A stretch of DNA of 64,000 nt. Origin: Nereocystis luetkeana (lineage: Eukaryota; Sar; Phaeophyceae; Laminariales; Laminariaceae). Position 1 is the stretch's first letter, and the number at the start of each line of letters is the position of its first letter. Below, piece after piece: positions 1 through 61,943 of this stretch. Location: NCBI GenBank assembly GCA_031213475.1, contig JARUPZ010000018.1, forward strand, positions 1,922,001 to 1,986,000. Direction: 5' to 3'. A program made the position numbers and the translations under genes. The notes under the pieces are model-generated. The model searched no databases and was not told the DNA's origin. It worked only from the letters and a program-made list of their open reading frames with translations.

Positions 1-93
1 ACTAGGTCGACAGCGAAGGTGTTTCCCACTGAGCCATGTATGGGGGTAAAATATCGATCAATTACCCAGCCCGGGGTAGTCATTATACCAGGT
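1..93 (-). mobile_element. tRNA-derived SINE (family SINE-B), head fragment at window edge
   Basis: Read on the minus strand, this matches the 5' head of the SINE copies at 1412 and 7591: a short leader, then a pol III A-box-like stretch around positions 25-40. The left end runs off the window. It carries an extra CCAGGTA at 88-94 that the copies near 7670 and 7945 lack (see the TACCWGGTA finding). The family assignment rests on sequence match within the window. Confidence 0.55.
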
Positions 94-144
94 AACAACT
101 ACTGCAGCGAAATTTTACATTTTGTAAATATACAGAGTAAACGT

Positions 145-780
145 AGTGAGCGCCCAACTATTGTTGGAGGTTTGTCTGTTGGGAGTAGGAACGGTGCTTC
201 GTCTCGAAAGGGATGCGTGGTCGATGTTCAAGTTAAAAAGGCAAGCAACAGATGAGTACACCCCCCCGCGCGCCCCGGAGAACCGTTACTCCGCACAAGG
301 GGACTGATCGTATCACGTACCAGGTAGAGTTTGTGGCAAGGCACCCACGAGTACCCCCAGCTAGACAATCAGGGTGCTGTTTCGTTTTTTGTGGCGGTCG
401 GCCACAGCTGGCGATCACGAGCTACGGCAGTAAATCATTTGTGCGGGGTGGAAAAACTTTACTCCGCACAAGGGGAATGATCGTATCACGAAGTGTGCCT
501 ATGGTAAGGCACCCACGGGGCAGTTACATAGCACACTCCATTGCTGCCTCTAGAAGTGGCCACACCGGAAATTAAATCAACTTATGGGCGCTGTGATCCA
601 TATGAAAGCCCGTCTCACAAGCGGTTCTCAGTAGGATGCAGCTCACCCTTCATGCGACTCGCCGGACACCTCACGGCGATGCACGCTTGGTGCAAGCAAT
701 ACCTGCCTGGTTGCTCCGTCTCGGTATTGTAGGGATGCGAGGGTCTATGGTCATACGGGCTACGGCCACGCATTATATCG
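145..780 (+). repeat. Dispersed repeat family F, copy 1
   Basis: The same block recurs at 23462-24115 and, partly inverted, at 60165-61030. Shared landmarks are a 'GGAACGGTGC..CGTCTCGA' segment, a C-rich tract, a 'TTGATCGTATCACG'-like segment and a block ending near 'GGTCATACG..TACGGCCA'. Copy 1 holds an internal duplication: the 'CTCCGCACAAGGG' segment occurs near 291 and again near 461. No reading frame is shared between copies. Its transposon class is unknown. A TACCAGGTA scar sits at 318-326 where the other copies have a single TA. Confidence 0.5.
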
Positions 781-954
781 AGAACACCCCCTCCCCGGAG
801 AGCCGGAGAGTTGTCACCCAGGAAGGTTTGCTGGCGAGAGGGGGAGGGAGAAAAAACAATTTTTTGCTACGAATTCATTTGGACAAGGCGTCGCGATTGG
901 AGCGGGCGCTCGAAGTCTGGTCTGGTTCCGATTTCCACGGAACGTCTGGGCAAC

Positions 955-956
<2 letters not shown>

Positions 957-1006
<50 letters not shown>
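957..1006 (+). repeat. (CAG)n microsatellite
   Basis: About 17 CAG triplets in a row. The surrounding open frames translate it as poly-Gln, poly-Ser or (minus strand) poly-Leu/Cys. None of these frames shows conserved sequence outside the tract, so I do not call a gene. Confidence 0.9.
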
Positions 1007-1008
<2 letters not shown>

Positions 1009-1411
1009 CCGCTTCTCTCAAATATCTCGCAGAAGCAGCCGCGACAAGCACCGCCGGCGAGCAGCGCTCCGCTTCTCTCAAGTCTCTCGTAGCAAGCAAC
1101 ACGCCACGTGTTTATCCTCGGGGCCAAATGTCGCACCAATGCTACTCCAACCATCGCATCTTTAGCAGACTACGGCCTGTACACAGAAGTGTACCTCAGG
1201 GGTGTCATTTTTCGAGCAACGGGTGGGAAAATTGGGCGCCGTAAACCCTCGAGAACTCGTGACGTGGGCGTGAAAACTAATTATCCGTACTCGTACGTAC
1301 GCACTTGGGCAACTTTTTCGGGTCCGTCTCCTTTCAGTAAATACCTGGTACCAGGTACCAGTATGCCGTGAGTAGGAGACCGTGTGGTTTGACCCCCTTT
1401 GACTGACTGTT

Positions 1412-2830: not shown

Positions 2831-3967
2831 TGAGTCGGAATCTCGCTTTGTCCTCATGTTTGTTACGTTCGAGCGTGCGCTCCGGAAGCATTACGAATGG
2901 TTGGGATAGTGTGCTCCTGGGTACAGCACTAGCGATAGTACGTGGCGAGGGGAGAATACCCCGGGGGAGGTCGCTGTTACGTAGTCGTCGAGAGTCAACG
3001 AATCTCGAAAACATATGGTCCGTGCAGAACAATTTGCCCAATCTGTTTTCGGCTAATAATACCGTTTCGAATACGTTCGACGAGTTGAAAGACACGACGA
3101 CCACAACAAACAGCAGTCGCGATCACCAGAGGGGCTGAGAAAAAAACAAGTACCTGGTAATGTTTAGGAACTTTTTTTTTGTTTCCGATACACTCTAAAA
3201 ATATCAAGCGAGCAAGTCGCAGCTCATCAGCAAGTACTTGCCAAAATCAGCTGCTACTATTTATTCCAAAACCTTGAATATCTCGCGAACTGCTGGCTGT
3301 CTTGAAATAAAAATAAACCTTGAGCGTCGGGGGGGGTGTTGTCGGCTGCTCTCATCATGAAAGAAGCCGATTTCCATGACGCCTTATTTGATCTGTTTTT
3401 GTGCCTCTTTCTCTTGTCATTTTTTTCCTTTTTTTACCGAGAGATTCGCAAGAAGAGCGATCCACGTGGTGGAGGACGATACCTTCTGAATAACGTCCTT
3501 CTGAGAAATAAATGCACCCTCCAGAACAAACCAACACACGAAGGTTTTCGTGATTTTTTCCAAGATGAAGAGGCGAAGAACATATTTTTTTCTTCTTATT
3601 TTCGAGGAGAATATCTCCCTGAATATAGTATAAAAATAGCGCTATTATATATTACGCTGTTTAGACAATAATACCTTGGTATATCAGAAGAAGAGCATTA
3701 ACATTCCCCACGCCGGGAAATACGTACTCTTCTTGGTGGGGAAATATTTGGACTAATAAATCGCCATGCACGGACTAAATAGTTGTTGGTTGCATGGCAT
3801 TACTCGAAGACATGTTGTTGGTTGGTTGTGTATATATATAGCAACTAGCCTGCTACTAATAAGTCGCGTGACTTACCGGTTGAGCACGCAGGCTATATAG
3901 CGGGTAGCAATCCTAAGTGCCATCTTTAAAGGTAGGGCAGCATGGACCTAGGGACCGACTGCTGCTA
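2831..3967. other. No gene seen
   Basis: Mixed-composition DNA with several short open frames (up to 125 codons), none with recognisable domain, splice context or repeat copies in the window. One TACCTGGTA scar is at 3151-3159. From 3330 to 3720 it is AT-rich; 3770-3960 holds short runs such as TATATATA. Confidence 0.5.
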
Positions 3968-4276: not shown

Positions 4277-4799
4277 TAGTTAGTTGTGCTGATTGCCTCG
4301 CCAGATGATGTCTTCTGAACAAAGGGGGGCGAGGCATTCACCGGTAGGGCACAGGCGATAACGCCTGCAAGGTATATGATGAGAGGACGCTTGCTACAAA
4401 TCATAAAATGCCGTATAACGCCTGCCAGGTATGACGAAGGAACGCTTATTGCTACAAACAATACTGCCGCTAAAGGGGAGAGAGGGGATACCATAGCGCT
4501 ATACCGTACCAGGTATGAGATAAAGAGCCATCGCCTTGATCCCTACATTAACACTAGAAAACAGTGCATGTTATATAACCCTTTTAAGACGCGCCCTCCC
4601 TGCAGCAGCACAGTAGATATCATGGCGACCGGAAAAAAAAATCCGATAACCTTGTTTGGTGTTACCCAATTATCAACCGTCTACGAGCGCGTGAGGGCCC
4701 AGAGGTAGGGTCAGGATCACGTCTCGCGCCCGTGCCGCACGACTCCATGCACCGCTGTCGTAACTCGGACATCGACTCGGTTATTATACTCGGTTAATA
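4277..4799. other. No gene seen
   Basis: Contains a short internal duplication: 'ATAACGCCTGCAAGGTATGA' near 4358 recurs slightly changed near 4415. One TACCAGGTA scar is at 4507-4515. Open frames here lack coding features. Confidence 0.4.
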
Positions 4800-6217: not shown

Positions 6218-6610
6218 AAAAGAGAAGACAAGGGAAGACCACGTTCGAGCCAGCTGCACCAGTTGGTAGCACTAGTAGTATGGTCATATTCTACTTCCTA
6301 GTCGACTTGGTGCCTTGCTACCCTGTCTGCCATCTCCTTCCTACTTTCGTCTACCGCCGTTTCCCTTCTACCCCTCCTGTTCCCCCCCCTCTCCGCATTC
6401 ACTCGGTCGGGCTTTATGCCACTTCTCCTGTTGCCCCCTCCCCCCCCGTTCCTTTGGGCACCATCCACGGCGGATGCGCGGCGCTGTCTACTCATCTCAG
6501 CCTCAGCCTCGTGCCACCTCACCATGAACCGTTCGGCTGCTTCAAGGATCCCCCGGTACCACTTCCCCGCCTTTTTGGCTGCTGTGGACCACAACGCGGT
6601 CTCAACTCCA
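5650..6610. repeat. Purine-rich region, imperfect duplication and A~35 tract
   Basis: 5640-5910 is strongly A/G-rich on the plus strand. The block 5920-6030 ('TGGTACCTTGCTACCC..CTGCCGTCTCC') recurs diverged at 6245-6345. An unbroken run of about 35 A at 6181-6215 could be the tail of a retroposed sequence, but no source is visible. Apparent open frames in 6280-6880 run into the microsatellite and are not coding. Confidence 0.5.
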
Positions 6611-6617
6611 AACACCA

Positions 6618-6786
6618 AGTACATACATACGTACGAACGTACATACATAAATACATACCTGGTACATACATACATACATACATACATACATACATACATA
6701 CATACATACATACATACATACATACATACATACATACATACATACATACATGCATGCATACATATATACATACATACATACATACA

Positions 6787-6820
<34 letters not shown>

Positions 6821-6850
6821 CATACATACATACATACATACATACATACT
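6618..6850 (+). repeat. (TACA)n microsatellite
   Basis: More than 40 tetranucleotide units with few interruptions, immediately 5' of repeat R copy 1. One TACCTGGTA scar (6656-6664) breaks the register by exactly 7 bases; removing CCTGGTA restores the repeat. Confidence 0.95.
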
Positions 6851-8395
6851 TACGTTTATCCTTTTCCTAAAATTACTTGATTATAAGGATCTGCCTCACG
6901 CTCAGCGAGTCTCCAACGATTTTTTGTCGCTTCTACGATCTTTGCTTTCTTCGCGTTCTTTGCTTTCTTTGCGTGCTTGCTTCTGGTGCCACCCTTTTTT
7001 TCCCGGAACAATAGAGAAAATATCTCAGAAAAAGAAGAAAGTTGATTTTGTTTTGTCAGCGGTTTGGGAGGCTCTCTTTCGCTTTCTTACACCGGCTGGT
7101 TGAAATTTCTTTTGCGCTTTCAGTTATTTTTTCCTTTTTTCTTCTTCCGTTTCGTGCGCGTGTGTGTAGTCGGAGCACGCGGCGGGCGAGCCCGGCGCCG
7201 TCGCGGGTGTCGGCGGATGCTGGCGGGTAGAGCGGGGGTTGCAAGGAGCGCGGTCGCGGTATTCGTGGCTAGGCGTCGTGTGTGCCTCGAGACACAAGGG
7301 AAGCATGAATGGGCTCTGTTTGGCCTCCATCTGAAAATTTAGACTGAGTATGTACGAGTCCTTAAGGGTCGTTCGGGATTGCAAGCTAGCATTCAAGCGG
7401 TGCTTATTTTGGCGACCACGCTGAACTATACACAGAGACGTACGCCGTCTGACCATCGACATCGTCGCTGGCGAACGAGGGTCACGATGAGCACCGGGCT
7501 TCACGCGGGGCGGACGACGGGGATCACTGTGACAGAAAGGGGGGAAATCTTTACCCGGACCGAATCGGTGGCGAGGTGGTCGCGAGAGGGGCGGGCTGTG
7601 AAGGTGTTACCTACTGAGCTATAGGGGTAAAAGATCGATCGATTACCCAGCCCAAGGTAATCCTTATAACACTCTCCCCCCCTCTGAACGGCGGGATCTT
7701 TGGTGTGTCGGAACCGTATACATGCGTCCGTACGCTGGCCTACCCGCTTCGTTTCATTACCTGGGGAACCAGGGAGATGTGTGTTTTAGGTGTGCACGCG
7801 CAAGCGTTTCTGTAAAAGAAACATCCGATGTGGGGTTCGAACCCGCGACCTGGACGACGTCAAATCAATGTGAAGGTGTTACCTACTGAGCTATAGGGGT
7901 GAAAGACCGATCGATTACCCAGCCCAAGGTAATCCTTATAACACGGGCGGCGTACGAGGCTGAGAGAGAAGCTCTGCTGTTCATTTTTTTTCTTCTTTGA
8001 CTGGTGCAAGTTGTTCCAGGGGCAGACAATTAATACATGAGAGGGGACGGGGATTTTTTTCTCTTTCCGAATTTTTCGGTTTCATTTCCTTTGTTTTTGC
8101 GGTGCTGCTGCTGTGCCATGCTATGCTTTCTCGTTCGTACATACCAGATACATACAACATATCAAAATAAGAAAATCAGTACGTACCCTACCTGGGGTAT
8201 GTACGTACGTACGTAGGGCATGTGACTCTTGGCATTATCAAGTCGCCAATTTGCGTCTACAACAATAATCATAAAAATAATATTCTACCATCGATCTTCA
8301 GTTCGCTTCGCGCAATTCGATGTACTTTTCCTTCCTGAGCGAGCGTAGCGGGCGGCGTAGGCCGCCCGCGGAGCGAGGCGCCTTGTACATACATA
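6851..8395 (+). repeat. Repeat family R, copy 1 (interrupted by a SINE)
   Basis: Matches copy 4 (10926-12140) along its length and copies 2, 3, 5 and 6 over most of it. It ends in the family's GC hairpin 'GCGGGCGGCGTAGGCCGCCC', then 'GCGCCTTGTACATACATA'. A SINE-B occupies 7591-7945. Open frames differ between copies and are frame-shifted by indels, so R looks non-coding. The element class is unknown. Confidence 0.8.
7591..7945 (-). mobile_element. SINE-B (head-body-head) nested in repeat R
   Basis: On the minus strand the head has a textbook A box 'TAGCTCAGTAGG' and B box 'GGTTCGAACCCC'. A body of ~160 bp follows, and then a second head truncated at the same point as in the 1412 copy. The flanking R sequence resumes exactly: 'GAGGGGCGGGC' on the left and 'GGGCGGCGTACGAGG' on the right, with GGGCGG repeated as the likely target duplication. 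The tRNA-like part lacks a pairing acceptor stem, so it is not a tRNA gene. Confidence 0.8.
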
Positions 8396-9530
8396 GAACT
8401 ACATACTTAGATCACAACCCCTGAGCGTGCTCGGTTGGTGCATCCCTGTCCTCTCAGAGCTCCCACTTCCAAACCGCCTCCTTTCATTACTTGCCGGACC
8501 TTTCCAGCAGTTCTTTGTTTTCTCGGTCATTTCTTCCTTCATTCTTCTTTCGTTTCGTGTGCGTGCGTGTTCTCCGAGCACGGCATCGCGGGAGGACCCG
8601 GCACCGTCGCGGGTGCCAGCGGGTGCTGGCGGGTAGAGGGGGGGTTGCGAGGAGCGCGGTCGCCGCTTTCGTGCCTAGGCGTCGCGTGTGCCTCGAGACA
8701 CGAGGGATGCATGAACGGGCTTTGTCTGGCTTCCATTTATGATTGTTGATAGAGTATGTGCGAGTTTATAAAGGTCGTTTGGGAGGGCAAGATACTATTC
8801 AAGCGGTGCTTATTTTTGCGACCACGCTGAATTTGAAAGGGGGAGGTGTGCAGTTTGAACACCGACGTTATCGAGCTGGCGAACGAAGGCCACGGTGAGC
8901 ACCGGGCTTCACGCGGGGCGGGCGACGGGGCTGATTGTGGCAGAGAGGGATAAAAGCTTTACCCGGACCGAATCGGTAGCGAGGTGGTCGCGAGAGGGGC
9001 GAGCGGTGTACGAGGCTGAGAGAGAAGCTCTTCTGTGCGATTTGTTTCTTTTCTTCTTTTCGACCGGGTGTAAGGTGTTCCAATCAGGCAGAAAAATATT
9101 ACACGAGAGGGGATGGGGATTCTTTTTCCTTTCCGAGTTTTCGGTTTCATTTTCATTGTTTTTGCTGCTGTGCCGTGCTGTGCTTTCGCTTTCTTCGTAC
9201 ATACAGTACAGACATAGAGCATATCGAAAGAAGAAAATAAGTACAGACAGTAGGACCCTACCTGGGGTGTATGTACGTACGTACGACATCCGCCACGCGA
9301 AGCGCATATGTGGCATCCAAGCTGACGTCGGAGCTGTTTGTTCCTGAAGCATGGCGGCGGGACGCTTGGCATTATCAAGTCGCCGGTTTGCAGTTAAGAT
9401 CCTTGAAAACACCAAACTCAATCGTGGACCTCTGTTCGCTTCGCATAATTTGATGTACTGTTTTCCTTCCTGAGCGAGCGTAGCGGGCGGCGTAGGCCGC
9501 CCGCGGAGCGAGGCGCCTTGTACATACATA
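8396..9530 (+). repeat. Repeat family R, copy 2
   Basis: Starts 'GAACTACATACTTAGATCAC' and ends with the GC hairpin and 'CCTTGTACATACATA'. It is directly followed by copy 3 in the same orientation and is very similar to copies 3 and 6. Confidence 0.85.
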
Positions 9531-10680
9531 GAACTACATACTTAGATCACAACCCCTGAGCGTGCTCGGTTGGTGCATCCCTGGCCTCTCAGAGCTCCCA
9601 CTTCCAAACCGCCTCCTTTCATTACTTGCCGGACCTTTCCAGCAGTTCTTTGTTTTCTCGGTCATTTCTTCCTTTTTTCTTCTTTCGTTTCGTGTGCGTG
9701 TTCTCCGAGCACGGCATCGCGTGTTCTCCGAGCACGGCATCGCGGGAGGACCCGGCACCGTCGCGAGTGCCAGCGGGTGCTGGCGGGTAGAGGGGGGGTT
9801 GCGAGGAGCGCGGTCGCCGCTTTCGTGCCTAGTCGTCGCGTGTGCCTCGAGACACGAGGGATGCATGAACGGGCTTTGTCTGGCTTCCATTTATGATTGT
9901 TGATAGAGTATGTACGAGTTTATAAAGGTCGTTCGGGAGGGCAAGATAATATTCAAGCGGTGCTTATTTTTGCGGCCACGCTGAAGTTGAAAGAGGGAGG
10001 TGTGCAGTTTGAACACCAACGTTATCGAGCTGGCGAACGACGGCCACGGTGAGCACCGGGCTTCACGCGGGGTGGGCGACGGGGCTGATTGTGGCAGAGA
10101 GGGATAAAAGCTTTACCCGGACCGAATCGGTAGCGAGGTGGTCGCGAGAGGGGCGAGCGGCGTACGGCGGCGTACGAGGCTGAGAGAGAATGCGATTTGT
10201 TTCTTTTCTTCTTTTCGACCGGGTGTAAGGTGTTCCAATCTGGCAGAAAAATATTACACGAGAGGGGACGGGGATTTTTTTCCCTTTCCGAGTTTTCGGT
10301 TTCATTTTCATTGTTTTTGCTGCTGTGCCGTGCTGTGCTTTCGCTTTCTTCGTACATACAGTACAGACATAGAGCATATCGAGAGAAGAAAATAAGTACA
10401 GACTGTAGTACCCTACCTGGGGTGTATGTACGTACGTTCGACATCCGCGACGCGAAGCGTATATATATGTGGCATCCAAGCTGACGTCGGAGCTGTTTTT
10501 TCCTGAAGCATGGCGGCGGGACGCTTGGCATTATCAAGTCGCCGGTTTGGAATTACGATCCTTGAAAAAAACTAAATTCAATCGTGGACATCTGTTCGCT
10601 TCGCATAATTTGATGTACTTTTTTCCTTCCTGAGCGAGCGTAGCGGGCGGCGTAGGCCGCCCGCGGAGCGAAGCGCCTTG
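9531..10680 (+). repeat. Repeat family R, copy 3
   Basis: Tandem with copy 2. It carries a private small duplication ('GTTCTCCGAGCACGGCATCG' twice near 9699 and 9723). It ends with the GC hairpin at about 10646-10667 and passes straight into a (TACA)n tract. Confidence 0.85.
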
Positions 10681-10925
10681 TACATACATACATACATACA
10701 TACATACCAGGTACATACATACATACATACATACATACATACATACATACATACATACATACATACATACATACATACATACATACATACATACATACAT
10801 ACATACATACATACATACATACATACATACATACATACATACATACATACATACATACATACATACATACATACATACATACATACATACATACATACAT
10901 ACATACATACATACGTACATACATA
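10681..10925 (+). repeat. (TACA)n microsatellite
   Basis: About 60 tetranucleotide units joining R copy 3 to R copy 4. It probably grew from the TACATACATA that ends every R copy. A single TACCAGGTA scar (10705-10713) interrupts it; removing CCAGGTA restores perfect register. Confidence 0.95.
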
Positions 10926-12140
10926 AACATTATTACGTTTATCCTTTTCCTAAAATTACTTGATTATAAGGACCTGCCTCACGCTCAGCGAGTCTCCCAC
11001 GATTTTTTGTCGTTTCTACGATATTTGCTTTCTTCGCGTTCTTTGCTTTCTTTGCGTGCTTGCTTCTGGTGCCACCCTTTTTTTCCCGGAACAATAGAAA
11101 AAAAAATCTCGGAAAAAGAAAAAGTCGATTTTGTTTTGTCAGCGGTTTAGGAGGCTCTCTTTCGCTTTACACCGGCTGGTTGAAATTTCTTTTGCACTTT
11201 CAGTTATTTTTTCCTTTTTTCTTCTTCCGTTTCGTGCGCGTGTGTGTAGTCGGAGCACGGTGACGCGGGCGAGCCCGTCGCGGGTGTCGGTGGATGCTGG
11301 CGGGTAGAGGGGGGGTTGCAAGGAGCGCGGTCGCGGTTTTTGTGGCTAGGCGTCGTGTGTGCCTCGAGACACAAGGGAAGCATGAATGGGCTCTGTTTTG
11401 CATCCATCTGAAAATTCAGACTGAGCATGTTCGAGTCCATAAGGGACGTTCGAGATTGCAAGCTAGCATTCAAGCGGTGCTTATTTTGGCGACCACTCTG
11501 AACTATACAAAGAGACGAACGCCCGTCTGACCATCGACATCGTTGGGCTGGCGAACGAGGGTCGCGGTGAGCACCGGGCTTCACGCGGGGCGGGCAACGG
11601 GGATAACTGTGACAGAGAGGGAGGAAAGCTTTACACGAACCGAATCGGTGGCGAGGTGGTCGAGAGAGGGGCGGGCGGCGTACGAGGCTGAGAGAGAAGC
11701 TCTGCTGTTCATTTATTTTATTTTATTTATTCTTTGACTAGTGCAAGCTGTTCCAGGGGCAGTCAATTATTACATGAGAGGGGACGGGGATTTTTTCCTC
11801 TTCCCGAATTTTTCGGTTTCGTTTTCATAGTTTCAGCAGTGCTGCTGTGCTGTGCCGCTGTGCCATGCTGTGCTTTCTCGTGCGTACATACCAGGTACAT
11901 ATCATACAGCATATCGAAAGAAGAAAGCCAGTGCCCTACGTGAGGTATGTGCGTACCAGTACGTACGGCATGTGACTCTTGGCATTATCAAGTCGCCAAT
12001 TTGCAACTATACAACAATCATAAAAATATATGTTCAATCATCGACGTTCTGTCCGCTTCGCGTAATTCGACATGTACTTTTTTTTCCAGAGCGAGCGTAG
12101 CGGACGGCGTAGGCCGCCCGCGGAGCGAAGCGCCTTGTAC
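10926..12140 (+). repeat. Repeat family R, copy 4
   Basis: Same subfamily as copy 1, with a different 5' part from copies 2, 3, 5 and 6. It shows R sequence uninterrupted at the point where copy 1 holds the SINE, so it serves as the empty site. A TACCAGGTA scar is at 11889-11897. Confidence 0.85.
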
Positions 12141-12383: not shown

Positions 12384-13288
12384 TATATAGTTTTTTCAAC
12401 CGAAAATGTCGGACAAAGGGGTAGTACATAAAAGGTACCGTGAAAAAAGCGTTGAGTGCGCTCGCAAACAGATGGGGGTGCGATCGTTAAGCAGCGCTCG
12501 TTTTTTCTCTCACACAACGGTAAAAAAAAGGATGTTGCCTGACTGAAGCCGAACATTATATACCAGGTATATATATTATGGAGAAAAGGGCTCTCTCGAT
12601 ATGATATCTCCGACATTTCCTGAAAAAAAACACACACACACGTTGATGTTTGTTCGGTGTTGGTAACCTTTCCCGTTCTGGCGAACAAAAAAAAAACAGG
12701 AACGCTCTTTTTTTGCGGTAGGTACCTTAACGGATACGATATTATGGCGGGGCGGGGGGGGGGGGGGGGGACCTAAAAATTCGCATGTCCGTTCAAAACA
12801 AATCGGGTATATATCGAGGTTCTCGGATTGCTATGGTTGAGGGGGGCGCCCTCAGTTAGAGACCCTTGCGCTCCAAAGTGTACTGATCCGCTGGGCGGAA
12901 ATGTAGAGGACCGCAAAGACGTCAGCATGGAGACCGATCAGCCACTATGTTTAGCGCCCAGAACCCCTACCTGTACCACTTCGTAGATGTAACGACGGGT
13001 GGAGATGTAAATACGGAGACAAAATGGTCCACATACCATTCCGTCCAGCTTGGTACTGTGAAGACTCTGGACGGAAATGTAAGAACCGCTTCGTCTTCAT
13101 ATTAATGTATCAATGCTTCTTATATATACTCCGAAGTGTGTATATATCGATATCGCGGCCGCCCAACTGTACGAGCACGACATTTCCATGAGGAACTTCT
13201 GCCTTTCCCCCCCCGTACCGAACCCTCCTCTAATCAGCAAAAATCCCCATGCCACTATTGAATACTCAACCCTTGCCCCGCTCTAAAA
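12384..13288. other. No gene seen; minor repeats
   Basis: Holds a TACCAGGTA scar (12561-12569), a G run of ~16 near 12753-12770, and two copies of a 'GGACGGAAATGTAAGAACCG'-like segment (near 12895 and 13070) that recurs near 24357 and 25312. No open frame with coding character. Confidence 0.4.
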
Positions 13289-13297
13289 TACCTGGTA

Positions 13298-13402
13298 TTA
13301 CGGGGGACCATAGTTAATAGGACCAAATATTGTTACTAAAAATGGTTAAATATATAGGTTTTTATGTACACCATAGGTCCTGTTAACTATGGTCCCCCGT
13401 AA
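13298..13402 (-). mobile_element. MITE family A, copy 5
   Basis: Full-length, inverted relative to copy 1. Its left flanking TA is also the last TA of a TACCTGGTA scar at 13289-13297. This copy serves as the unoccupied reference for the scar inside copy 6. Confidence 0.88.
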
Positions 13403-13488
13403 TAGTGCCCTGTTTTTTTGTTCGCCGCGTTGAAACGTTACTCTTACGTTGTCCGCTCATCGGTCACATTGTTGGAGCTGCCAAGATA

Positions 13489-13600: not shown

Positions 13601-13604
13601 TAGT

Positions 13605-29973: not shown

Positions 29974-30027
<54 letters not shown>

Positions 30028-47533: not shown

Positions 47534-49785
47534 CTTCACCCTTTCCTTTATTTCGTCGCAACTTAGATCCGGGGCCTCAATGCAGAGGACTCCTCTTCCC
47601 ATCTCCCCGCCGACGTACGCTACAAAGACGAACATATTTTGTTATTGCGCTGAGGTGGTAAAAACTTTCTACGCTTGCCGACTCATTGGATCGGAGTGTG
47701 TGTAAGCTCCAAGTATGTTGTTGTATGGTACCACAGGTATCATATCAGTTTTCGTTTGCATCGGGTGTGCGGTGAATACCTCCCGCGTTTCGTCCTTGAA
47801 GGTCTATGATACCATGCCTGATTAATCGCTTTCTTTGGTGACCCTTCCACCTCACGGCCGAGAAACGAACAATAATAGTCGTATAATATTTACTCTGGAA
47901 CAGTGCACCGTACCTGGTACCTTGTGACACTCCTCCAAGAAAGTCATTGCGTGCCCGCGGTTTTCCTTCTTAAAGTTCAGACTTCCTGCTTATATGGTAA
48001 AAAGTACAAGATATACTCGTAGTAAATGACGGGCGGGTGATGTCTGCTTGAAGTTCAAAGTTGCCGTGCCGGTATATAATACGTTGGTATGTCGTTGAAC
48101 GTTAACGTTTGTTTAATGTTGCACGGCGACGCGCACTCACTCATCAATCAGCTCGCCGTAACTGAGTGATGTTTTTGTGCACTACCAGGTATACGTTTGT
48201 TTCCTGTTGTTTTTGTTTCGGTTGTCATCGTTTTTGTTTTTTGCTGTTGTTGGGTTTCTGAATTTGTTGTTGTCGTTGTTCGCCCACAAGTGTGCCCATG
48301 TATTAGGTAAACATCAGAATGTCGCTACATACAGAGCAGAACGTACTTGTACAAGTATAACTTAATACCGGTATACTCATTTCCAGCCTACGAGACTCTC
48401 GGAAGCTTGTTACCAGCGGCACTCTGAACAAGCTGTCACAGGTGTCTGCGTGTCTACCTCCCCCCGCGCTTTTTGCCCTGGACTCTACATCGACGGGTAG
48501 ATGTTTTGATGAAAACTACAGAATCCGTCACTGCGAGTTCTCCCGGTCGGTCGACACGAAAGTCTGCAAGCTGCGAAATAAAATGATCGATCAATGTTTT
48601 GTTCAAACTGGTTTCGTTGTTTATCCGCGCGATAAAGAACCTCGAACAAACACAGCAGAAAATTAGGGACAAACATGTGATGAGAACGCCGCACAGAGCA
48701 AATAAATAAGTAGTGTAAGCAGGATACGTAGCGGTCGCAGAAATGCCGGCAGGAAACAGCACTTTTTCACCCCCCTGGACGGAGAGCTAATTTGCCCTAA
48801 TTTCCTAATGTATGTGCCTTTGACTGAAACCAAACTACAGCAGCAGTAAGTAGTACCACAGGTGAAGCTTTTTACGATGGAGGATCACCCTAATTTTTCT
48901 GAGGCTCCTTACTTAAGGAGCTCCATACCTCACCCGAAAAACGACTTCATAAAAAATCGAGTTGCATCCCGATGAATAATCCCATGGCGGCCCGAGTATT
49001 CAAAACCATCGTTTTTCCAAACAAGATTGGCATTCCGACGATTTGGGTTAAAAAGGAGCCCCGTCATTCTGAGACAACGTTAGCGGAAATGTGCTATTAA
49101 TACCTCTATCGTAGAACGCGAACTACTGCTGCTGTGTATACCTGGTACCAGTAGTTTTTAGTGCCTACACCATTGACGGCGCGCACGTTTTGCCTATATA
49201 GCATGACGTGTCTCCGGACATCTTCGTCCTTGCGAGCTTTTAACCTCTACTCCCCTGCTACTCGCACAGGCTCGTGATCTCCGCTCCCCTGCTACTCGCA
49301 CAATTACTCAAGCCCACCATACATGGCTCCCATGGCTCAGTGAGGAAAAACCAATATAACGCCGTTGCGCACACGATATAGAGACCTCGACAAAAAGTAT
49401 GCAGAGTACTAAAAATTACAAACGACAAGCATAACAACAGAGAAGAAAGTGGCGGGGCTGCGGAGTCGAGTAGTCGGATGTCTGTGTGTGCCGTTCTTTC
49501 TACCCGTCGACATCGATCACACTCAGTGTCCGTGGCGATTCTTCCTGCTTCATCCTACTCCTATTAAATACCAGGTAGATCTGCGAGATAAATACAAACT
49601 TTGGCAGTTGGTCGAGCCCGATGAATCGTGTCGTTTCAAATGTCGTTTCACATTCTTCTTTTTTTTTCCCCTCTCCCCTACAAATACGCCTCCGTAACTA
49701 AAGTCGCGGCGAACACCTTTTCCCTGTACAGCCTCAGTTTCGAGTTTTCGACCGCCTAAGCGGTTACATCTCGAGCACCTTCACC
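47534..49785. other. Upstream region of the karyopherin gene; repeat fragments
   Basis: A SINE-A tail fragment lies near 48385-48510. A single diverged arm of the family D hairpin lies near 49496-49550. A direct repeat 'CTCCCCTGCTACTCGCACA' occurs at ~49248 and ~49285. 'CCTATATAGC' near 49193 resembles a TATA box ~590 bp before the ATG, but the promoter is not established. Scars at 47911, 48183, 49139 and 49569. Confidence 0.4.
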
Positions 49786-49890: not shown

Positions 49891-51265
49891 GTAAGCGAAA
49901 AACGTTTTCTGACTCTATGGTGTTGATAATTTGATAATTTGTTTCCTGTACGAGTACTCGTATTTTGATAGACTCGGCCTGCTCTCGCTCGTCGGGTGCA
50001 GCTGCCCTCATGTTCTCCGGCGACCCTTCCTTGCATTGCTCTTGGAGCAACCGCGCCGTGGGTGGCCATGCCGCAGTAGGTCTTAGCCGTGCATCTCATC
50101 GCACCAGCAGTCTGTCATCTGCAGGTGGAGATAAGTGTGGTCGTCCAGTCACTCCCATGTACAAGCCTTGAGGGATGTCGAGAAAAGGGCCTTGCTGCAT
50201 TTCCGCTTCCCTGTGTGTTGCAGTCCTTTTATTTCCACTTGCCCACACAGCAGCGCAGCGCGTACGATGGTACATAGCCGGCTGTGCTGAGCATTGCTTG
50301 TAGGCCCTTCCAGAGAGTTCGTCATGTGGAGACGCATTTGTGCACTTCCTGCTTACCAGTACTAACAAAACATAATACCTCACTACCACGAGCAACATTT
50401 CGGCATCTGAATGCTTGCCGAAAACTCGATATCCGCCGATTTCGACCGAAACGAATATCTACGTATCATACAACAAATCGTACGACAAATACTCCCATCC
50501 CCGAGACGAGTTTTATCCTCAGCCACCCTCTGCTTCTCACGGGCACTGCGTGTACTACAGCAGTAACTGTTGGCGAACTCACCGCGCATGCTTATCGCGG
50601 GCGGTACGTACTGCTGCTGCGTACTGGTGCCCAGGTGACTATATCTTTCGTCTTTCTGTGTGTTTCCCTCTCGCTGAATCCTCACGCCGTTTATAAGCAG
50701 TATAGACGCGGACTACTGACTGTTGTAACAGCAGCGGTAAACTCTGCCAGGTACCTGGTACATACGAAGCTCAAAATTAGATCGATAGACACCCGAAACA
50801 GAAAAGAAAGGCCTTCTCTCGAGGTCGAAGATTGTCGAGGTTGCCGCTTCTCTGCCGGTGTGTCCTCCAGGGCATTTTACGGACGATATTTCGTTATCGG
50901 ATTCGCCGTTTTTTCTGTGTTCTGTGTTCTGTGCTACAAGCAGCTGTATTGTATTTCAGTATATAATACAGACATCTCTACCTGGTGCAGTATACTGGTG
51001 CAGTATACGGCAGCATGACATACGTGCAAGATGCCGCCGCCCCAGGACCCTGGTCACACCTCGTGCATCGAACAGCGCACGGCCTTCGATGCCTCGTCGC
51101 CCACCCCAGCTCCTCCTCCCGTGTTTTGGAACCCGCCCCGCCCGGTTACGGATCCGTGCGCAACGGCGACCGCTTCGTCCCCGCCCATCTACAATATTAT
51201 GTACCGATGAGTATAATCTAATACTGCGATTTGAATGGCCATTTGTGAACCTCTTGTTAACACAG

Positions 51266-51915: not shown

Positions 51916-52584
51916 CTCATCGCCACAAGTAATGCAGTCCGTGGTCACAGGACAGGCTTCAACAACTCGTACCAGGGTACTGGCTGTGTTCCGATATTAT
52001 GTACCTGGTATTATCCTCATGTACAAAGTTATGCTCCCGAGTTGCGTGCACTCGGTGGTGAGAATGCCAGGTTAATATCTTGATTATTGTGTACACATCT
52101 GAAAATATCGGCGTGTGTTGTGAGTGGTGGGTTGTTGGCGCACTTTATTTTCAGCGGCGGTACCCGCTCTATGTATGTATGAAATCGTATACCTGAAATA
52201 CGCGTATTTGATGTACCTGGTATGATGTTCCGGTACCTGGTGTGTATGATACGTACTGGTATGTTACACCATCAATGTTATAGGCACACGAGAGGTTTCT
52301 TGGAGGTTGGGTACGTAACAATGAGTCACTGCTGCACGAAGCAGGTACGCAGGTACACAGCCGCAGCATTGTTCTGCGCTGAATCCTGAGTATGATACGT
52401 ACGTAGATGCCGGTACTCAGTACTCGCACCTCGAATTCCACGCATTCCCTGGCATGGTTGGTATGGTGAAAAATACATCGGCACCTGGTATCATACCTGT
52501 ACACAGCGACACCAGTACAAAGCAGAACTTTATTTGCAAAAATAAAAATAAAAAGGATTCAATTGTTGAGAGCGCCTTGCAGCG

Positions 52585-53041: not shown

Positions 53042-54280
53042 TACCTGGTACCTGGTGTTTCTTATTACCATTTTGTCGTAGCACGGATTTTTGGAGGGGG
53101 TAGGCTGTTCGCGTATGGCGTCGTTGCGCGGGCGGCTATTAATAGGAAGCGTAGTTTCCTGGCGGGATCGAGGTACGGGCGTAGTAGACCCAACTCTACC
53201 CCTGTAACCCTAAGGGCCCATCGTAGGGCCCATCTTATCGAGGACTTTTTATTTTTTCAAGTTGGTTTGATTTTTTTTTCTAATTTAATTTGCGTCTGAT
53301 TGGCCGAAGAGTGAATCACCAAGCAGGCAATCTCGAGGCATATTCAAAATTTCAATATATGTAGAAGGTCTTGTGGGCCTTTTTCGTGTGATTCTTTTAA
53401 ATGCTCATTTGGAATTTGGGAGTTGATCAACCTTGATGTAGCATGTTCATGATGGGTCAACACCTTTGGTGCTGTCTGAGGTGATTCTTGACTGTTTCGG
53501 TGGCCACGATCAAGGCGATAAAACGCGAACTTCAACGAGAGGCGACCGGAGCAATAGTTGCGCCCACGCCCACAGACCATAGCACATCGTACCCCGGTGG
53601 CGGCGCCTAAAAAACCATGGCGGCCGCAAGCCCAACTTTTCCGCCTGCTCGATCGGCTAACCATCACGAAAACCGAGCAAGCGAGCAAAAAAACAGGGGA
53701 TACACTCGAGACTTCGATAGCTGCGTTACCGTTGCTGTTCCGCACGTGGCTCTTGGCTCCCTCCGCCCGCCCAAGACACCCTGAGAGTGATAGCTTCCTA
53801 TCCTGCGCCACCAAAAATAAAAAGAGGCTGGCGGCGGCGCGCACGCGACAACGCAAACCTTCGCTCTCGTCTACGCTCGTCGTTGTTTGACGACTGGGCG
53901 TTGTGTGACGCGGTGCGTTATTCCAGGATATTCCGAATGATTTGTTGTCTGACAATTAGTACGCAGTTCCCCGACAGGACACAAACACTTTTTTTTTCGA
54001 AATCAAAATAAATTCATTGATAGTAAAAAAATTAAATCCAAATAACGAAATTCAGCGTTCCCCATTAAGATGGGCCCTACCCCCAGACCGGGCCCGAAAC
54101 GGACCAGAAACGGTCGAGACTCGAGAAACCCGGCAGCGCCGCTTGGGCATCTGGCAAGAAAATTGTGAAAACGTTCTGAACGCGGACCACGATTCCGAAG
54201 TGCGGACCCCGCGTACACAATTTTCAAGAGAAACATATTCCCCTGGAAATCCGCGCTGGCAGATTATAAGGCCTCAAGCC
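53042..54280. other. No supported gene
   Basis: Intronic. A long minus-strand frame (53344-53955, 203 codons) and a plus frame over it are both open, but neither shows a domain. The GC-rich block 53540-53890 is unexplained. Confidence 0.35.
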
Positions 54281-54640: not shown

Positions 54641-54938
54641 CGGGCTCCGCTCGGACCTGCCGAGGGAGGTTCGCCAGGCTTTGTTATTTTCGCCACGGCG
54701 GGCGGCCTGAACAAAAACAAGAGTACTTCTTCTGACGCCCCCGCCCTCGTTGCCAGCTTTGAAGCCTTGGCCATCCTCGAGGAACCGCTTACTCTGCATG
54801 AAGTTTCTCTAACGTCCCAAACCTGAGCCTACCTCGACGCAGGGCGGAGCAGACAACCTTCCGTCTGTGCCCATGGTGCTGTATACGAGTGTACTTCAAC
54901 TATATAGTACCAGGTATATATTATATGTCGATGTGGCG

Positions 54939-57850
54939 GGTCGTGGGTTTAGGCCTAATCTTCTAAGACGAGCGAAGCGAGCCGTAAGTCGGACTGGGAA
55001 ATCGAGCGTAGCGAGGTATTAAGACTGCCGCAGGCCGAAAAAAAATCGACTAAGTCGCGCGAATGTCAATCGTCTTGATCCATATTTTGCGTCTTAGCGC
55101 GTCTTGGACTCGTCTTAGCTCGTCTTAGCGCGTCTTAGACTCGCCTTAGCGCGCCTTAGACACGTCTTGGCACGTCTTAGATTCGTCTTGGCACGTCTTA
55201 GGTTCGTCTAGGCACGTCTTAGGTTCGTCTACAGGCACGTCTAGGCTCTTGGCAGTACTAAAGCAAGAAATATGTCGAAAACTAACAGTTAGCTACTTCA
55301 ACGAGGCACGGGTACAGCAATATACAGCAACCACACAACAACGTAGAGCGCCAGTAAATACGGCAATACTCCAAGTATCAAGCTACCGGTACCTGATAAG
55401 TGCGATTATTACGTGTAATGATGGACGAACAGCATTATCACGTACCTGGTACTCCCACGTGGTAGTTCCTTTTGTTGGCATTTGACGTCACGCACAGCAG
55501 TACATAATTGATACCAGGTACCAGGTACCAGGTAGTAACTGGTATATTTGAGTATCTATACCAGGTATAGGCGTATTTGTTTGTACATTAATTCGTACAT
55601 ACGTGCCCATATTCGAAGTGAAAGCTCCGAAATCGCATTGCGAATAGAAGGCACCACCAGGTACCTGGTTTTATTGCGTCGTTTGTTTTCCACGAGGACG
55701 AATATCATACCGTCAGCAGCCGTGGATACCAACAAACTCAGATATAATTTTTCACGTATTAATAGTGTAAATATGAATAGTAGCATTATTAATATTAATG
55801 GCAACCCTACCAAGCCACCAACAGAAAACAGAAAGTCTTAAGAGATAACTGCAGTATTTAGTATTTGTCCTAAACGATGTCGTTCAAAGAACGACACGTT
55901 GCTACCGGTGGTAGTGATGCATCCGCGGTGTGAGCATACCAACGGATTTTGCGCAAACCACTATTAATATTATATCAATAGTAACTGCCCTGCCCGCGGA
56001 ACACAAAAAGAGTGCAGTTGTTGTCCTATCTATGTTGGGCGTCCCATATAAGGCATTATGTCGCCTATATTATTATACCGATGTACCATGGTTAAACGTA
56101 GCAATAATAATAGCAAAAAGAACGAGAAAACGAACAGCAGTATAGCCTAGTCGCCCTAAAGCATGCAACCTTTGTTTTGCAATAGAACTACATACTTAGA
56201 TCACAACCCCTGAGCGTGCTCGGTTGGTGCATCCCTGGCCTCTCAGAGCTCCCACTTCCAAACCGCCTCCTTTCATTACTTGCCGGACCTTTCCAGCAGT
56301 TCTTTGTTTTCTCGGTCATTTCTTCCTTTTTTCTTCTTTCGTTTCGTGTGCGTGCGTGTTCTCCGAGCACGGCATCGCGGGAGGACCCGGCACCGTCGCG
56401 GGTGTCAGCGGGTGCTGGCGGGTAGAGGGGAGGTTGCAAGGAGCGCGGTCGCCGCTTTCGTGCCTAGGCGTCGCGTGTGCCTCGAGACACGAGGGATGCA
56501 TGAACGGGCTTTGTCTGGCTTCGATTTATGATTGTTGATAGAGTATGTACGAGTTTATAAAGGTCGTTCGGGAGGGCAAGATAATATTCAAGCGGTGCTT
56601 ATTTTTGCGACCACGCTGAAGTTGAAAGAGGGAGGTGTGCAGTTTGAACACCAACGTTATCGAACTGGCGAACGACGGCCACGGTGAGCACCGGGCTTCA
56701 CGCGAGGCGGGCGACGGGGCTGATTGTGGCAGAGAGTGATAAAAGCTTTACCCGGACCGAATCGGTAGCGAGGTGGTCGCGAGAGGGGCAGACGGCGTAC
56801 GAGGCTGAGAGAGAAGCTCTTCTGTGCGGTTTTCTTCTTTCCTTCTTTTCGACCGGGTGCAAGGTGTTCCAATCAGGCAGAAAATTATTACACGAGAGGG
56901 GACGGGGATGTTTTTCCCTTTCCGAGTTTTCGGTTTCATTTTCATTGTTTTTGCTGCTGTGCCGTGCTGTGCTTTCGCCTTCTTCCTACATACGAGTACA
57001 GACATAAGAGTATATCGAAAGAAGAAAATAAGTACAGACAGCAGTATCCTACCTGGGGTATGTACGTACGTACGACATCCGCGACGCGAAGCGCATATGT
57101 GGCATTCGAGCTGGCGTCGGAGCTGTTTGTTCCTGAAGCATGGCGGCGGGACTCTTGGCATTATCAAGTCGCCGGTTTGTAATTACGATCCTTGAAAAAA
57201 CTAAACTCAATCGTGGACCTCTGTTCGCTTCGCATAATAATTTGATGTACTTTTTTCCTTCCTGAGCGAGCGTAGCGGGCGGCGTAGGCCGCCCGCGGAG
57301 CGAAGCGCCTTGTATATATTACGACGTTAAGAACCAACACAACTTGAAACAAAACAGAAGTAGCAGTAATCCTAAGGTAGTATGTCGAAGAAATTGGAGT
57401 GGACCTTCACCATCACACCCATCTGCCAAGTGGCGAGAGAGGATAGAGATGATGTTTTATTTTTCGTTTTTTTAAAGATAATAATGCCATCCTCGAAAAT
57501 ACGGAGAACCGGGTTCGATGTCCCCGGTGACAGGAAAAAGCGCATGGAGGCCCGAGAAAAGAAGGTTCGAAAGAAGCAAGTTGGAGTAGTCGATTCATTT
57601 GTCGTCCTCGCTTTGTTTCCACCTATTTCCACAGGTCGCTGTGGTCGTGTCGACCCCCTAAGACGCCTCGACCGGCGCCTGGTGCATTGTAAGACGAATC
57701 TAAGACGTGCTAAGACGAATCTAAACGTGCCAAGACGAATCTAAGACGTGCCAAGACGTGATATAGCGAGTAAGACGGGCCTCTCTCTGAGAAACGGATT
57801 AAGACGTATTTTAAGACACGTCATAGAAGATTGGGCCTACGTGGGTTGGT
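54939..57850. mobile_element. Mutator-like foldback element, ~2.9 kb
   Basis: Flanked by a 9-bp direct repeat GATGTGGCG (54930-54938 and 57851-57859), the target-duplication length typical of Mutator-like elements. Both ends contain 'TAGGCCTAATCTTCTAAGACG' or its inverse, followed by many 16-18-bp subrepeats of the 'CGTCTTAG.CGTCTTGG' type (54961-55240 and, inverted, 57655-57830). Long terminal repeats made of subrepeats are known in Mutator-like and foldback elements. No transposase is seen; the interior is AT-rich plus R copy 6. Confidence 0.6.
56185..57315 (+). repeat. Repeat family R, copy 6 (nested in the foldback element)
   Basis: Very close to copies 2 and 3 at 8.4-10.7 kb, from 'GAACTACATACTTAGATCAC' to the GC hairpin and 'GCGCCTTGTATATA'. 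The similarity over 46 kb of distance indicates recent movement or conversion. Confidence 0.85.
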
Positions 57851-58714: not shown

Positions 58715-58763
58715 TATTAATAGTTGCCAGCCACTACGATCCCCTTCGGCATTTCGAAGAGAA

Positions 58764-59145
58764 AAATACTGACGATTACGGCATCGGCCACACCAAGCAG
58801 CTCGGACTCCCGGGGGGAGGGGATGCATCCGAACTGCAGTGAAAGGAGCTGCGCCACCCCCGCACAGCGGGGAGCTACTCTTGTGCGAGGCACTGCTGCG
58901 AGCCCTTCGCAAGCACGTGATAGCGTCCAACATCGCAGTCGGTCGGCGCTTTTTTTATCGCTGTGCATGGGGGTTTCTACTCCTACTCACGTAAACCGTT
59001 GGAATGGGACTACTGTTTGTAAGAGGGATACTTGTCGAAAAGAAAGTGAGGATTACGTACAGCATCGGCCACACGAAGCAACGTCAGAAGGGGTATATGA
59101 TGCTGGGGGTAGGGGATGGGGGATGTGCCCGAAGCGCAACGGAAG
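58764..59145 (+). repeat. Diverged direct duplication
   Basis: 'GATTACGGCATCGGCCACAC' with ~80 following bases recurs as 'GATTACGTACAGCATCGGCC' near 59050. This gives the look of a repetitive open frame; no domain. Confidence 0.4.
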
Positions 59146-60164
59146 GTAAAAAGGTGTACGTACGCACGACACGACGAGCGCAGCCGTGATGGGCAATTGT
59201 GCGTGCTGCTGCTGCACGCTCGTTGCTATTCTAGAAATCAGCGCTTGTCGCTTTGTGTGTATATATATACACACATACATCTTGTATTTGTAGATACACC
59301 TATTCCCCTCGGGGGTGGGTTAAGGGCACGTTGTTGCCCGGTATTCGGGATGCGATGGTACGATATACCAGAGGTATATACTGCTGTACGGCTGTTCTAC
59401 GCTAACAGAGTAGACCACTGTATGTGCGAGTGTCGAGTACAGGAAGTAGTGCAGTGCCTGGCCGGTACTGGTTTAGTCAGCCCCTTGGGACCTTCGAGAC
59501 AGCGATCGAAACCCCAAAAACAGGACACTGCGGCTTTTGCCCGACAAGGCAGAAGGTTGCACACATTTGATATTGCCTGCGCCCGTGCCGTACGACTCCT
59601 TGCGTTGCTGTAGGTTAACTCGGACTCCAATACGTGCCACCTCCCCAAATCACGCCGTGGCCGTTGCCGTTGCTGCAATGAAATAATCGTCACCCCTTTT
59701 TATGGTCGTTTTTTTTTCTCCCGTCTGATTTCCTAAGAGTGTTTGTTTCGTATGAGTACGTGTATGACTATCCTTACGTACCCTTTTTGTCGAATGTCTT
59801 TTCCAGGATTCGTTAATTTTTTGTGTCCAGCCTGCGGAGAATCCGTTTGGCGGGAACCACCCGAAACAACGCACGACGAACGATGTGCCTACCTGGATTG
59901 ATATAATATACATATATACTCGTATATGTACTTGTATATATTATATACCACTCTGTCCCATAATATAAGCATCGATTTTACACTAAGTGTTCAACCCAAC
60001 GGTGACTATATTTCGGCACATAGTGGTATTGGTGTGTATATCTGGTACCTTATACGATTTACATGAATACCATAACAATGCGAGTAAATGCCTCCCCCCC
60101 CCCCTCCCCAGGGCAAAAAGTTTGTGTGTAATGCATGGAAGCAACGTGATAAGCGCCTAAATGT
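59146..60164. other. No gene seen
   Basis: Intronic. A TACTGCTGTA site at 59379-59388 and TA-rich stretches near 59265 and 59905-59950. Confidence 0.4.
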
Positions 60165-61030
60165 TGGAGTTGTGTCTACTAGAAGTAGGAATGGTGCCAC
60201 GTCTCGAGAGGGATGCGTGGTAAAATGGTCAAATGACTCAGGCAAGAAAAAAATGAGTACGCCCCGCCCCCCCGGACCGATTTTTCGAGCTTGATATCTC
60301 CAAAGCTAAAATAACGTCAGCGCCGAAAAGGGTGGCGTTGGGCGGATGTCGTCGAGGGCTGTCCGAAAAGGTGGTATTCGGTGTTGGCATCCTCTTTGTT
60401 ACGGAGTTGTCGAGTTCGAAAAGTCGATCCAGGGGGGGGGGGGGGGGGGGTTGGGGGTGGGGGTGGGGGGGGTACTCGATAGGAGAAATGTACTCGTTCT
60501 CATGCATGGCCGTAGTCGTATGACCATAGACCCTCGCATCTGTACAATGCCGGGGCGGAGCATGTCGGGTTTTCACCGACCAGGCAGACATTGCTTGCAC
60601 CAAGCGCGAAGCACCGTGAGGTGTCCGGCGAGTCGTATGAAGGGTGAGCTGCATCCTACTAAGAACCGCTTGTGAGACGGGCTTTCATATATATATATGG
60701 ATGGCAGCTTCAATGAGTTGATTTAATTTCCGGTGTAGCTACGTCCAGAGACAGTAATTGGAGTACTATGTAACTGCCTCTTGGGTGCCTTACCATGAAC
60801 ACTACGGGATACGATCATTTCCACTTGTGCAGAGTGAAGTTTTTCCCCTCGCACAAATGATCTAACTCGACGACCAGCTGTAAGCGACCGCCGAAAAAAC
60901 GAAAAATGAAGAAAAGAACGAACGTACCCTGTTTGTCTAGCTCACGTAGTGAGCGGCGTGTTTTACGGTGTCGTTGCCAACCGACGCCAACACAACCTAT
61001 ACCAGGTATGTAATATATAGGGGGGGCGGG
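60165..61030. repeat. Repeat family F, copy 3, partly inverted
   Basis: 60165-60275 matches the left part of copies 1 and 2 in plus orientation. 60475-61030 matches the right part in minus orientation. Between them is a G run of ~18 near 60432. The arrangement suggests inversion about the G/C tracts, or two insertions. Confidence 0.5.
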
Positions 61031-61699
61031 GGCGTTTACTCGCATTATTACGATAGCGCTGAGCAGTATGTTTGGTAGTGTGAATCCACTTGGTCTCTAT
61101 GCCCGGTGCTGAAATGAGAAGGTGTGTTTTTCCGTCGCATGGCAAAGTTTGTTTTTTTGCAGGTCGTATACGAGTGCGAGTAAGTTTATACGAGCATGTA
61201 CGTATTACCTGGTACCTGGCACCTGGTATATATTTGGTACGAATGCACGATGTTCTACACCTCGTTTTGAGTTGAGCAGCACCCTCGCGACGTTTTAGCC
61301 GGTGGCACCGCTTGCGCCGACGCGATGCCATGATGGCATCACCCTGACCGCCCAGCGTTGGTTGACGAATGTGTACATGTAGCAAAAACGCTTTGCACGC
61401 GTACAACTTGTACGGTCGTATTCATACTGCTGTACCTGGTATGTACGTACGCACCGCGGTTCTGCTGTTGTACCATATATAGCGCTGTTTCCAGTTGCCA
61501 GCGTGTTTGTTGGTTGTTTCTATTTTTCTTGGGCGGTGATACAGAAGGACAGATACGTCGACGCTTCAGTCAGCTTATCAATACAGAGCAGTATTGATAG
61601 TTTATTTTTATTTTTATTTCACACTTTTGGCCCACCGACGTATTGCCGGTTATTTTTCAGCATTCGTACCTGGTATACTATTAATATGATGTTAATGAA

Positions 61700-61800
61700 C
61701 CCCTTTGACGTTTAAAACTGCGGTCCCGTTTTTGGGACAAATCACTCAATTTTTAAGTAGTTTGTCCCCTAAACGGGACTGCAGTACTAAAAGGGTTCAC
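61700..61800 (+). mobile_element. MITE family C, copy 5
   Basis: 'CTGCGGTCCCGTTTTTGGGA' and its inverse around 'AAGTAGTTTGTCCCC', with ends GAACCC and GGGTTC. The TTAA flank is seen only on the left side. Confidence 0.6.
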
Positions 61801-61823
61801 TCCTACCCTGGTATTTGATACTA

Positions 61824-61943
61824 TTACAGGGGGGCGTAGTAAATAGGACCCACGGTACAGACAAAAACCTATACATTTCCCTATTTTTACCAACAGTATT
61901 TGGTAATATTGTAATACCAGGTATTTACTATGGTCCCCCGTAA
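61824..61943 (+). mobile_element. MITE family A, copy 10
   Basis: Longer than the other copies. A segment near 61905-61923 that includes TACCAGGTA replaces the usual 'TTTGGTCCTATTTAC'. Confidence 0.8.

Follow-up and report, generated by a model that had tools for sequence, protein, structure and literature searches.

TACCWGGTA in the genome of the brown alga Nereocystis luetkeana: a probable excision scar of a TA-inserting DNA transposon

Why is the nine-base palindrome TACCWGGTA so common in the DNA of the brown alga Nereocystis luetkeana? The question was raised by a stretch of 64,000 nucleotides (nt), positions 1,922,001 to 1,986,000 of the forward strand of contig JARUPZ010000018.1 (assembly GCA_031213475.1), which is C18:1922001-1986000 of the 465-Mb genome and is called the window here. 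A sequence-only reading of the window had estimated about 49 copies of the word and interpreted them as scars of transposon excision. The estimate was exact: 49 copies lie between positions 86 and 61923, 24 of them TACCAGGTA, with centre base A, and 25 TACCTGGTA, with centre base T, against 0.36 on average, and never more than 2, in 100 dinucleotide shuffles. We consider it very probable that most TACCWGGTA copies are indeed excision scars of a cut-and-paste DNA transposon, which would have inserted at TA and left 5-nt CCAGG overhangs. Four findings had been named as fatal to the excision interpretation, namely genome-wide counts near expectation, no further empty sites, a motif equally common in exons, and copies arising only by spread of a longer repeat unit; none of them was obtained, and the interpretation is supported.

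Genome-wide abundance and insertion at TA

Genome-wide, TACCWGGTA was counted 182,395 times and the reversed word 1,744 times, a 105-fold excess that amounts to one copy per 2.55 kb and, if each insert measures 7 bp, to 0.27% of the genome. In a 264-kb sample, which combines the window with twenty further pieces of 10 kb (L-numbers denote sampled loci), we found 121 copies; with both strands taken together, this gives 121 of each form for an order-3 Markov expectation of 2.4 per form. The A/T balance at the centre, also claimed by the sequence-only reading, held with 63 A and 74 T in 320 kb, where the centre base showed no association with the flanks at 15 of 16 positions (P >= 0.09; P = 0.005 at the remaining one). 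Judged by eye, the flanks of the 75 copies among the 121 that are isolated were mostly unrelated, with a slight bias towards A on the left of the TA and T on its right. Forms with C or G at the centre numbered 10,882 genome-wide against 1,899 for the reversed words, so that about 4.7% of centres are now C or G; therefore, the TACCWGGTA copies are not all recent.

An abundance of this kind could also be reached by a selected, highly iterated palindrome, of which HIP1 of cyanobacteria is an example, that is, by a site of binding, methylation or replication that selection maintains or spreads. The motif is palindromic and present throughout the genome at about 105 times the frequency of its reversed word, and among one-mismatch scar variants of the 264-kb sample the three outer positions had more transitions than the inner ones, which would suit such a site. 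A constraint on the motif centre, hinted at by the same sample, was dropped after the genome-wide count of C and G centres, which shows the centre to be free to decay. Moreover, as described below, members of one repeat family can differ by a copy, which is then a 7-bp insertion at TA, and we hold the selected palindrome to be very unlikely; strong over-representation does not by itself make a palindrome a binding site.

The insertion was seen in an empty-site test, in which CCWGGTA was deleted from 127 copies and the joined flanks were searched in the sample, 3 microsatellite sites being left out. Results showed clean empty TA relatives at 15 of the 29 spanned sites, while eight control deletions, of other lengths or at other places than CCWGGTA, gave 1 to 4 clean sites for 18 to 27 spanned. 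When the test was repeated on a larger set, 17 of 31 sites had clean empty relatives, against 5/28, 2/24 and 5/22 in the controls. A table of insertions and deletions between repeat copies, made blind to the motif, had CCWGGTA as its commonest 7-bp class, with 8 events for 4 in the next class. At L010:306 all five relatives were empty, and further good cases were found at L004:3428, L004:3469, L007:7235 and window position 13546. TACCWGGTA sites are TA plus a 7-bp insertion, CCWGGTA, in individual repeat copies.

These empty sites go beyond the five that had been proposed within the window, and the five fared differently. The site at 13546, in a repeat called MITE A (for miniature inverted-repeat transposable element), is well supported, with 29 clean among 43 spanning relatives. 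For position 318, a copy near 60846 is indeed empty (2 clean of 3 spanning relatives), while the relative given at 23770 aligns on the left only. For position 86 an empty relative is not shown, as homology with 7670 and 7945 stops at the scar and the left half alone aligns. For the sites at 6656 and 10705 empty relatives exist, although only within (TACA)n microsatellites, which makes them weak. Long (TACA)n tracts cover window positions 6600-6860 and 10650-10950, with one scar in each.

Scars also occur in tandem. The three scars with common TAs reported earlier at 55512-55534 are real, and around 137 scars in 320 kb we counted 43 scar-like neighbours (at most 2 mismatches) at offset 7 and 13 at offset 14, against 0 to 4 at each other offset from 3 to 21. 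Such an excess at offsets 7 and 14 would be expected if the TA of one scar serves again. It would also be left if a 7-bp tandem repeat, (TACCWGG)n, had expanded, an origin that we find extremely improbable, since slippage is unable to start a unit at a bare TA, 75 of the 121 copies stand alone, and the centre base is unequal in 6 of 10 exact spacing-7 neighbours (AT 4, TA 2, TT 2, AA 2).

A second scar type and the minor forms of the first

MITE A has the structure TA-[TTACGGGGGACC...GGTCCCCCGTAA]-TA, frequently preceded by C and followed by G, and was found at 34 separate places, each longer than 80 bp, in 298 kb. Its ends between the TAs read TTACGG...CCGTAA, and a second word, CTATTAATAG, composed as C-TA-TT-AA-TA-G, carries the bases TT and AA that equal these element ends. 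CTATTAATAG was counted 22,282 times genome-wide, against 267 for the reversed word. In an array at L007 one and the same position was found in three states: empty as CTAG, occupied by MITE A (8397-8507), and carrying CTATTAATAG (8553, 8789 and 8851). Overall, the TTAA inserts (TATTAATA) had clean empty relatives at 11 of 21 spanned sites, against 0/18, 2/20 and 2/15 in controls. CTATTAATAG is a second scar type and fits excision of MITE A, an element present in the genome; therefore, this genome does contain excision scars that are abundant and recognisable, in this case together with their element. The array itself (L007:6970-9620) is made of local repeats in which scars, MITE A insertions and empty sites occupy corresponding positions.

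The TACCWGGTA scar has minor forms, which were counted as TA-x-TA on both strands of 320 kb, palindromes thus being counted twice. Among 4-bp inserts, CCAG (29 against 12.8 expected) and CCGG (42 against 8.6) were in excess, as were CCAGGG (10 against 0.6) and CCCGGG (10 against 0.4) among those of 6 bp, while forms specific to a CCTGG overhang stayed near background (CCTG 12 against 9.4, CCTGGG 1 against 0.4). CCAG inserts had clean empty relatives at 5 of 8 sites, against 0/8, 1/6 and 0/7 in controls. Genome-wide, TACCWGGGTA numbered 13,000 and its reversed word 771; among the first 100 of the 13,000 matches, 93 were CCAGGG, seven of these belonging to one 528-bp array, and 7 were CCTGGG. 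(At C1:1305185-1308362, TACCAGGGTA returns every 528 bp, suggesting a tandem array.) At a hot site in MITE A, CCAGGG accounted for 41 of 51 non-TA continuations and CCTGGG for 1. Slippage in the G run of existing scars would yield A and T equally, so that the 93:7 ratio argues for element ends CCAGG...CCTGG; nor would selection on a palindrome predict this ratio.

A single mechanism could produce both the main and the minor forms. The lost element would have inserted at a TA dinucleotide, with duplication of the TA. At excision, its transposase would make a single-strand cut at each end, 5 nt into the element, leaving flanks made of TA and a single-stranded CCAGG. Two such overhangs could pair in register except for the middle A:A, and repair of this mismatch would give CCAGG or CCTGG about equally, while a one-base slip would give either 4 bp (CCAG/CTGG, CCGG or CTAG) or 6 bp (CCAGGG/CCCTGG, CCCGGG or CCATGG). 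To judge from the minor scar forms, the element probably starts with TA-CCAGG and finishes with CCTGG-TA. The sequence-only reading had instead proposed ends CCW...WGG with two bases retained on each side and one resolved mismatch; its excision scar is kept, and its end structure is replaced by the one to which the minor forms point, CCAGG...CCTGG ends with a 5-nt overhang.

The hot site, TTAAATATA-TA-GG, is scarred at 775 places and empty at 5,960 (exact flanks, whole genome), that is, scarred at 11.5%; for comparison, scars make up 0.8% of the TA dinucleotides in the sample. So many copies with the same flanks would also be seen if longer repeat units containing the word by chance had spread, and the centre base of the first 100 of the 775 copies (69 T and 31 A, P = 0.0002) suggests that some hot-site copies may have spread with the MITE. 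As the sole source of the word, such spread is very improbable, given that the isolated copies have mostly unrelated flanks and that aligned relatives are often without the insert.

The parent element and the weight of the evidence

The parent element predicted by the sequence-only reading was looked for in five ways and was not found. TA-bounded inverted repeats in 264 kb comprised MITE A and other families, with no CCAGG element among the CC-starting matches listed, scar pairs apart. Neither the large insertions listed between repeat copies nor the top of a list of 11-mers following TA at unrelated places contained a parent.

Transposases were searched with introns disregarded and only the best candidates scored, so that absence is not proved. 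The Transposase_1 profile had no match, and its control matched nowhere. DDE_1 (pogo type) gave 28 matches in the genome, none of them linked to TACCWGGTA scars, and no CCAGG ends were seen in 1.5 kb on either side of 10 of the 28 or in the 9 kb surrounding four. The flanks of a multicopy DDE_1 match (C2 and C809) did not differ over 800 bp and yielded no boundary. The loci of two DDE_1 matches, L029 and L030, have TA-CCGTAATCATGCG ends, and a pogo element of TA-CC type may exist in this genome, without tie to the TACCWGGTA scars. The same ends are common to L029, L030 (C34:4443781-4450013) and a 573-bp short element at L014:4426-4998, and L030 also contains long inverted repeats. Pogo, the only TA-targeting type detected, would be the candidate superfamily for the lost element.

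Other candidates were rejected. The insertion at L009:5460-6447, tried as the parent, is taken to be hAT-like from its inverted ends (CAGGGATGCGTATTTCC) and its 8-bp duplication (CCTGGTAC), and it landed inside a TACCTGGTAC scar. Four enriched words of the 264-kb sample were tried as scars of other families, and their clean empty relatives were close to controls: TA-CGAG-TA (77 sites, 3/20), TA-CAG-TA (3/18), TA-CCG-TA (2/44) and TA-TCA-TA (5/19). TA-CGAG-TA (TACGAGTA and TACTCGTA at sampled loci) reached 69 copies against 12.9 expected, yet gave no empty-site signal.

Several observations weigh against the excision of a CCAGG-ended element. Two forms that a slip would allow, CTAG (12 against 10.4) and CCATGG (2 against 0.9), stand at background level in 320 kb, so that the model needs the added assumption of a repair favouring G:C. 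CCGG inserts had a clean empty relative at 1 of 8 spanned sites and for CCCGGG none was spanned; CCAGGG inserts had clean empties at 6 of 8, an ambiguous figure as the plus-one control also gave 5 of 8. The 69:31 skew at the hot site is one that equal mismatch repair alone would not predict. No CCAGG-ended parent was seen in the ~345 kb sampled, nor in 22 of the 67 genome-wide matches to the hot site that are followed by something other than a scar (6 of 51 and 16 of 16); 13 of the latter 16 loci resume MITE A after some bases, and L051, L053 and L057 do not, no two of these three having like starts. The DDE_3 profile had no match among 30 candidates scored (its control matched in 3 of 14 genomes). 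Finally, the main form of the scar, at 5 bp, is longer than the 2-4 bp given for Tc1/mariner footprints (PMC7913693).

The missing parent, in the sampled sequence as at the hot-site loci inspected, would be accounted for if a tiny unit had been inserted directly, either a minimal element made of its own ends or filler at broken TA sites, mostly without a full-size parent, and the product would look identical to a scar. We regard this as very unlikely, because the variants look as if free CCAGG overhangs had been joined in pairs, some in register and some slipped, and because ordinary excision is what leaves the MITE A scars of this genome. For excision itself, the missing parent is not fatal: under neutral theory scars fix at their rate of formation, and an element can move by cut and paste without becoming more numerous. 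Each jump would add one scar and no element copy, and a few long-active copies could leave far more scars than elements, so that the element itself may be present in low copy number. It is possible, though we stop short of expecting it, that a new TA-specific transposase with 5-nt CCAGG overhangs has been at work, that about 200,000 of its jumps became fixed in one brown-algal lineage in which elements are rare, with well over 100 scars for each element, and that the variants record annealing and mismatch repair by the host.

Positions in the window and comparison with known systems

Within the window, the first scars are the two TACCAGGTA copies at 86-94, in what had been called the head of SINE-B, and at 318-326, in repeat F. 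They are followed by two scars with a common TA at 1342-1357 (1342 T, 1349 A), by single scars at 3151-3159 and 4507-4515, by the two weak microsatellite cases at 6656-6664 and 10705-10713, and by scars at 11889-11897 and 12561-12569. MITE A is represented by a copy that serves as family reference (13296-13405), with a scar at its left edge (13289-13297), by a second copy (13487-13603) with the hot-site scar at 13546-13554, and by a copy at 61821-61945 with a scar inside it (61915-61923). CTATTAATAG, read as the MITE A excision scar, lies at 18301-18310, 45904-45913, 46882-46891 and 53136-53145, and at 22524-22533, where the reading is weak as the sole 'empty' relative (73% identity) has CTCG and not CTAG.

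Scars of the first type continue at 18441-18449, 19247-19255, 23569-23577, 25756-25764, 26379-26387, 31054-31062, 31701-31709 and 31740-31748, then at 38414-38422, 39713-39721, 40162-40170, 40444-40452, 43710-43718, 44540-44548, 45464-45472, 45916-45924, 46015-46023, 47911-47919, 48183-48191, 49139-49147, 49569-49577, 50752-50760, 52002-52010 and 52214-52222. At 53042-53050 a scar is followed by a partial second unit, and further scars occupy 54908-54916 and 55443-55451, on the left of the tandem group of three, and 55559-55567 on its right. The last ones before the MITE A copy are found at 61000-61008, 61206-61214 (followed by similar partial units), 61433-61441 and 61667-61675.

The tomosyn-like exons, the secreted-protein frame and the karyopherin exons of the window had been described as free of scars. 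The two long open frames at 27437-30499 and 31914-35740 indeed hold none of the 49, for 5.3 expected (P = 0.005), with the end at 35740 chosen just short of the scar at 35746-35754. When the second frame is taken from stop to stop (31914-35924), this scar, coding or in an intron, falls close to its end, and the count becomes 1 of 49 for 5.4 expected (P = 0.029); the scarcity thus stands at none or one, and the outcome hangs on where the second frame ends. The two longest frames of the window had no Pfam match, and the window had no Rfam match at the gathering level and no tRNA. In the whole genome, all 150 scored candidates (of 1,710) for the EsV-1-7 family were above the cut-off. These domain matches, at least 150, are often clustered, for example on C14, C25, C26 and C1. 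EsV-1-7 is expanded in brown algae and patchy elsewhere and in viruses (PMC7457493), which suggests that its expansion here fits a brown-algal host.

Transposon excisions are usually invisible, being precise or leaving rare scars that merge with the background. The TACCWGGTA scar, by its length and distinctive sequence, allows single copies to be counted, so that the genome may preserve past jumps in a form open to counting. If so, one genome would suffice to measure directly how often, where and how long ago cut-and-paste elements moved, and the in-register and slipped variants would reveal, in a very large sample, how the host joins a defined overhang and repairs its mismatches. A search of 5.39 million papers for the exact word TACCWGGTA gave no occurrence, which says little as motifs may be written otherwise, and no account of genome-wide excision scars was recognised in titles and abstract openings.

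Considering its 5 bp and that no parent was found, we do not file the scar as a member of Tc1/mariner, pogo or Stowaway; as the footprint goes beyond the 2-4 bp of Tc1/mariner, the enzyme may be new. The likeness to Tc1-type elements and Sleeping Beauty lies in the duplicated TA and in a footprint probably built of terminal bases, and in the Sleeping Beauty footprint, too, the middle base can be either. The differences are the five bases, the one dominant form, the lack of a parent in our searches and of a DDE_3 match. In brown algae, 17 Mariner-Tc1 families with 11,912 copies, most of them non-autonomous, are described for Ectocarpus, in a survey whose main text contains neither 'excision' nor 'footprint' (PMC12477816). 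The pogo superfamily, of the IS630-Tc1-mariner group, targets TA in most families and is present in stramenopiles (PMC7386202). It resembles the present case by this target, by the 28 DDE_1 matches and by the TA-CCGTAATCATGCG ends of L029 and L030, and differs in that no inspected DDE_1 locus has CCAGG ends and that Passer, a pogo element, leaves 0-4 bp (PMC9976928). Stowaway MITEs of Triticeae leave terminal fragments of 1-4 bp, flanked by TA, at vacated sites, with re-insertion at a scar also described (PMC1925063). The terminal fragments between TAs at vacated sites would be a common trait of the two systems; there, five variable footprints of one intron are on record, and here, 182,395 copies of a single form.

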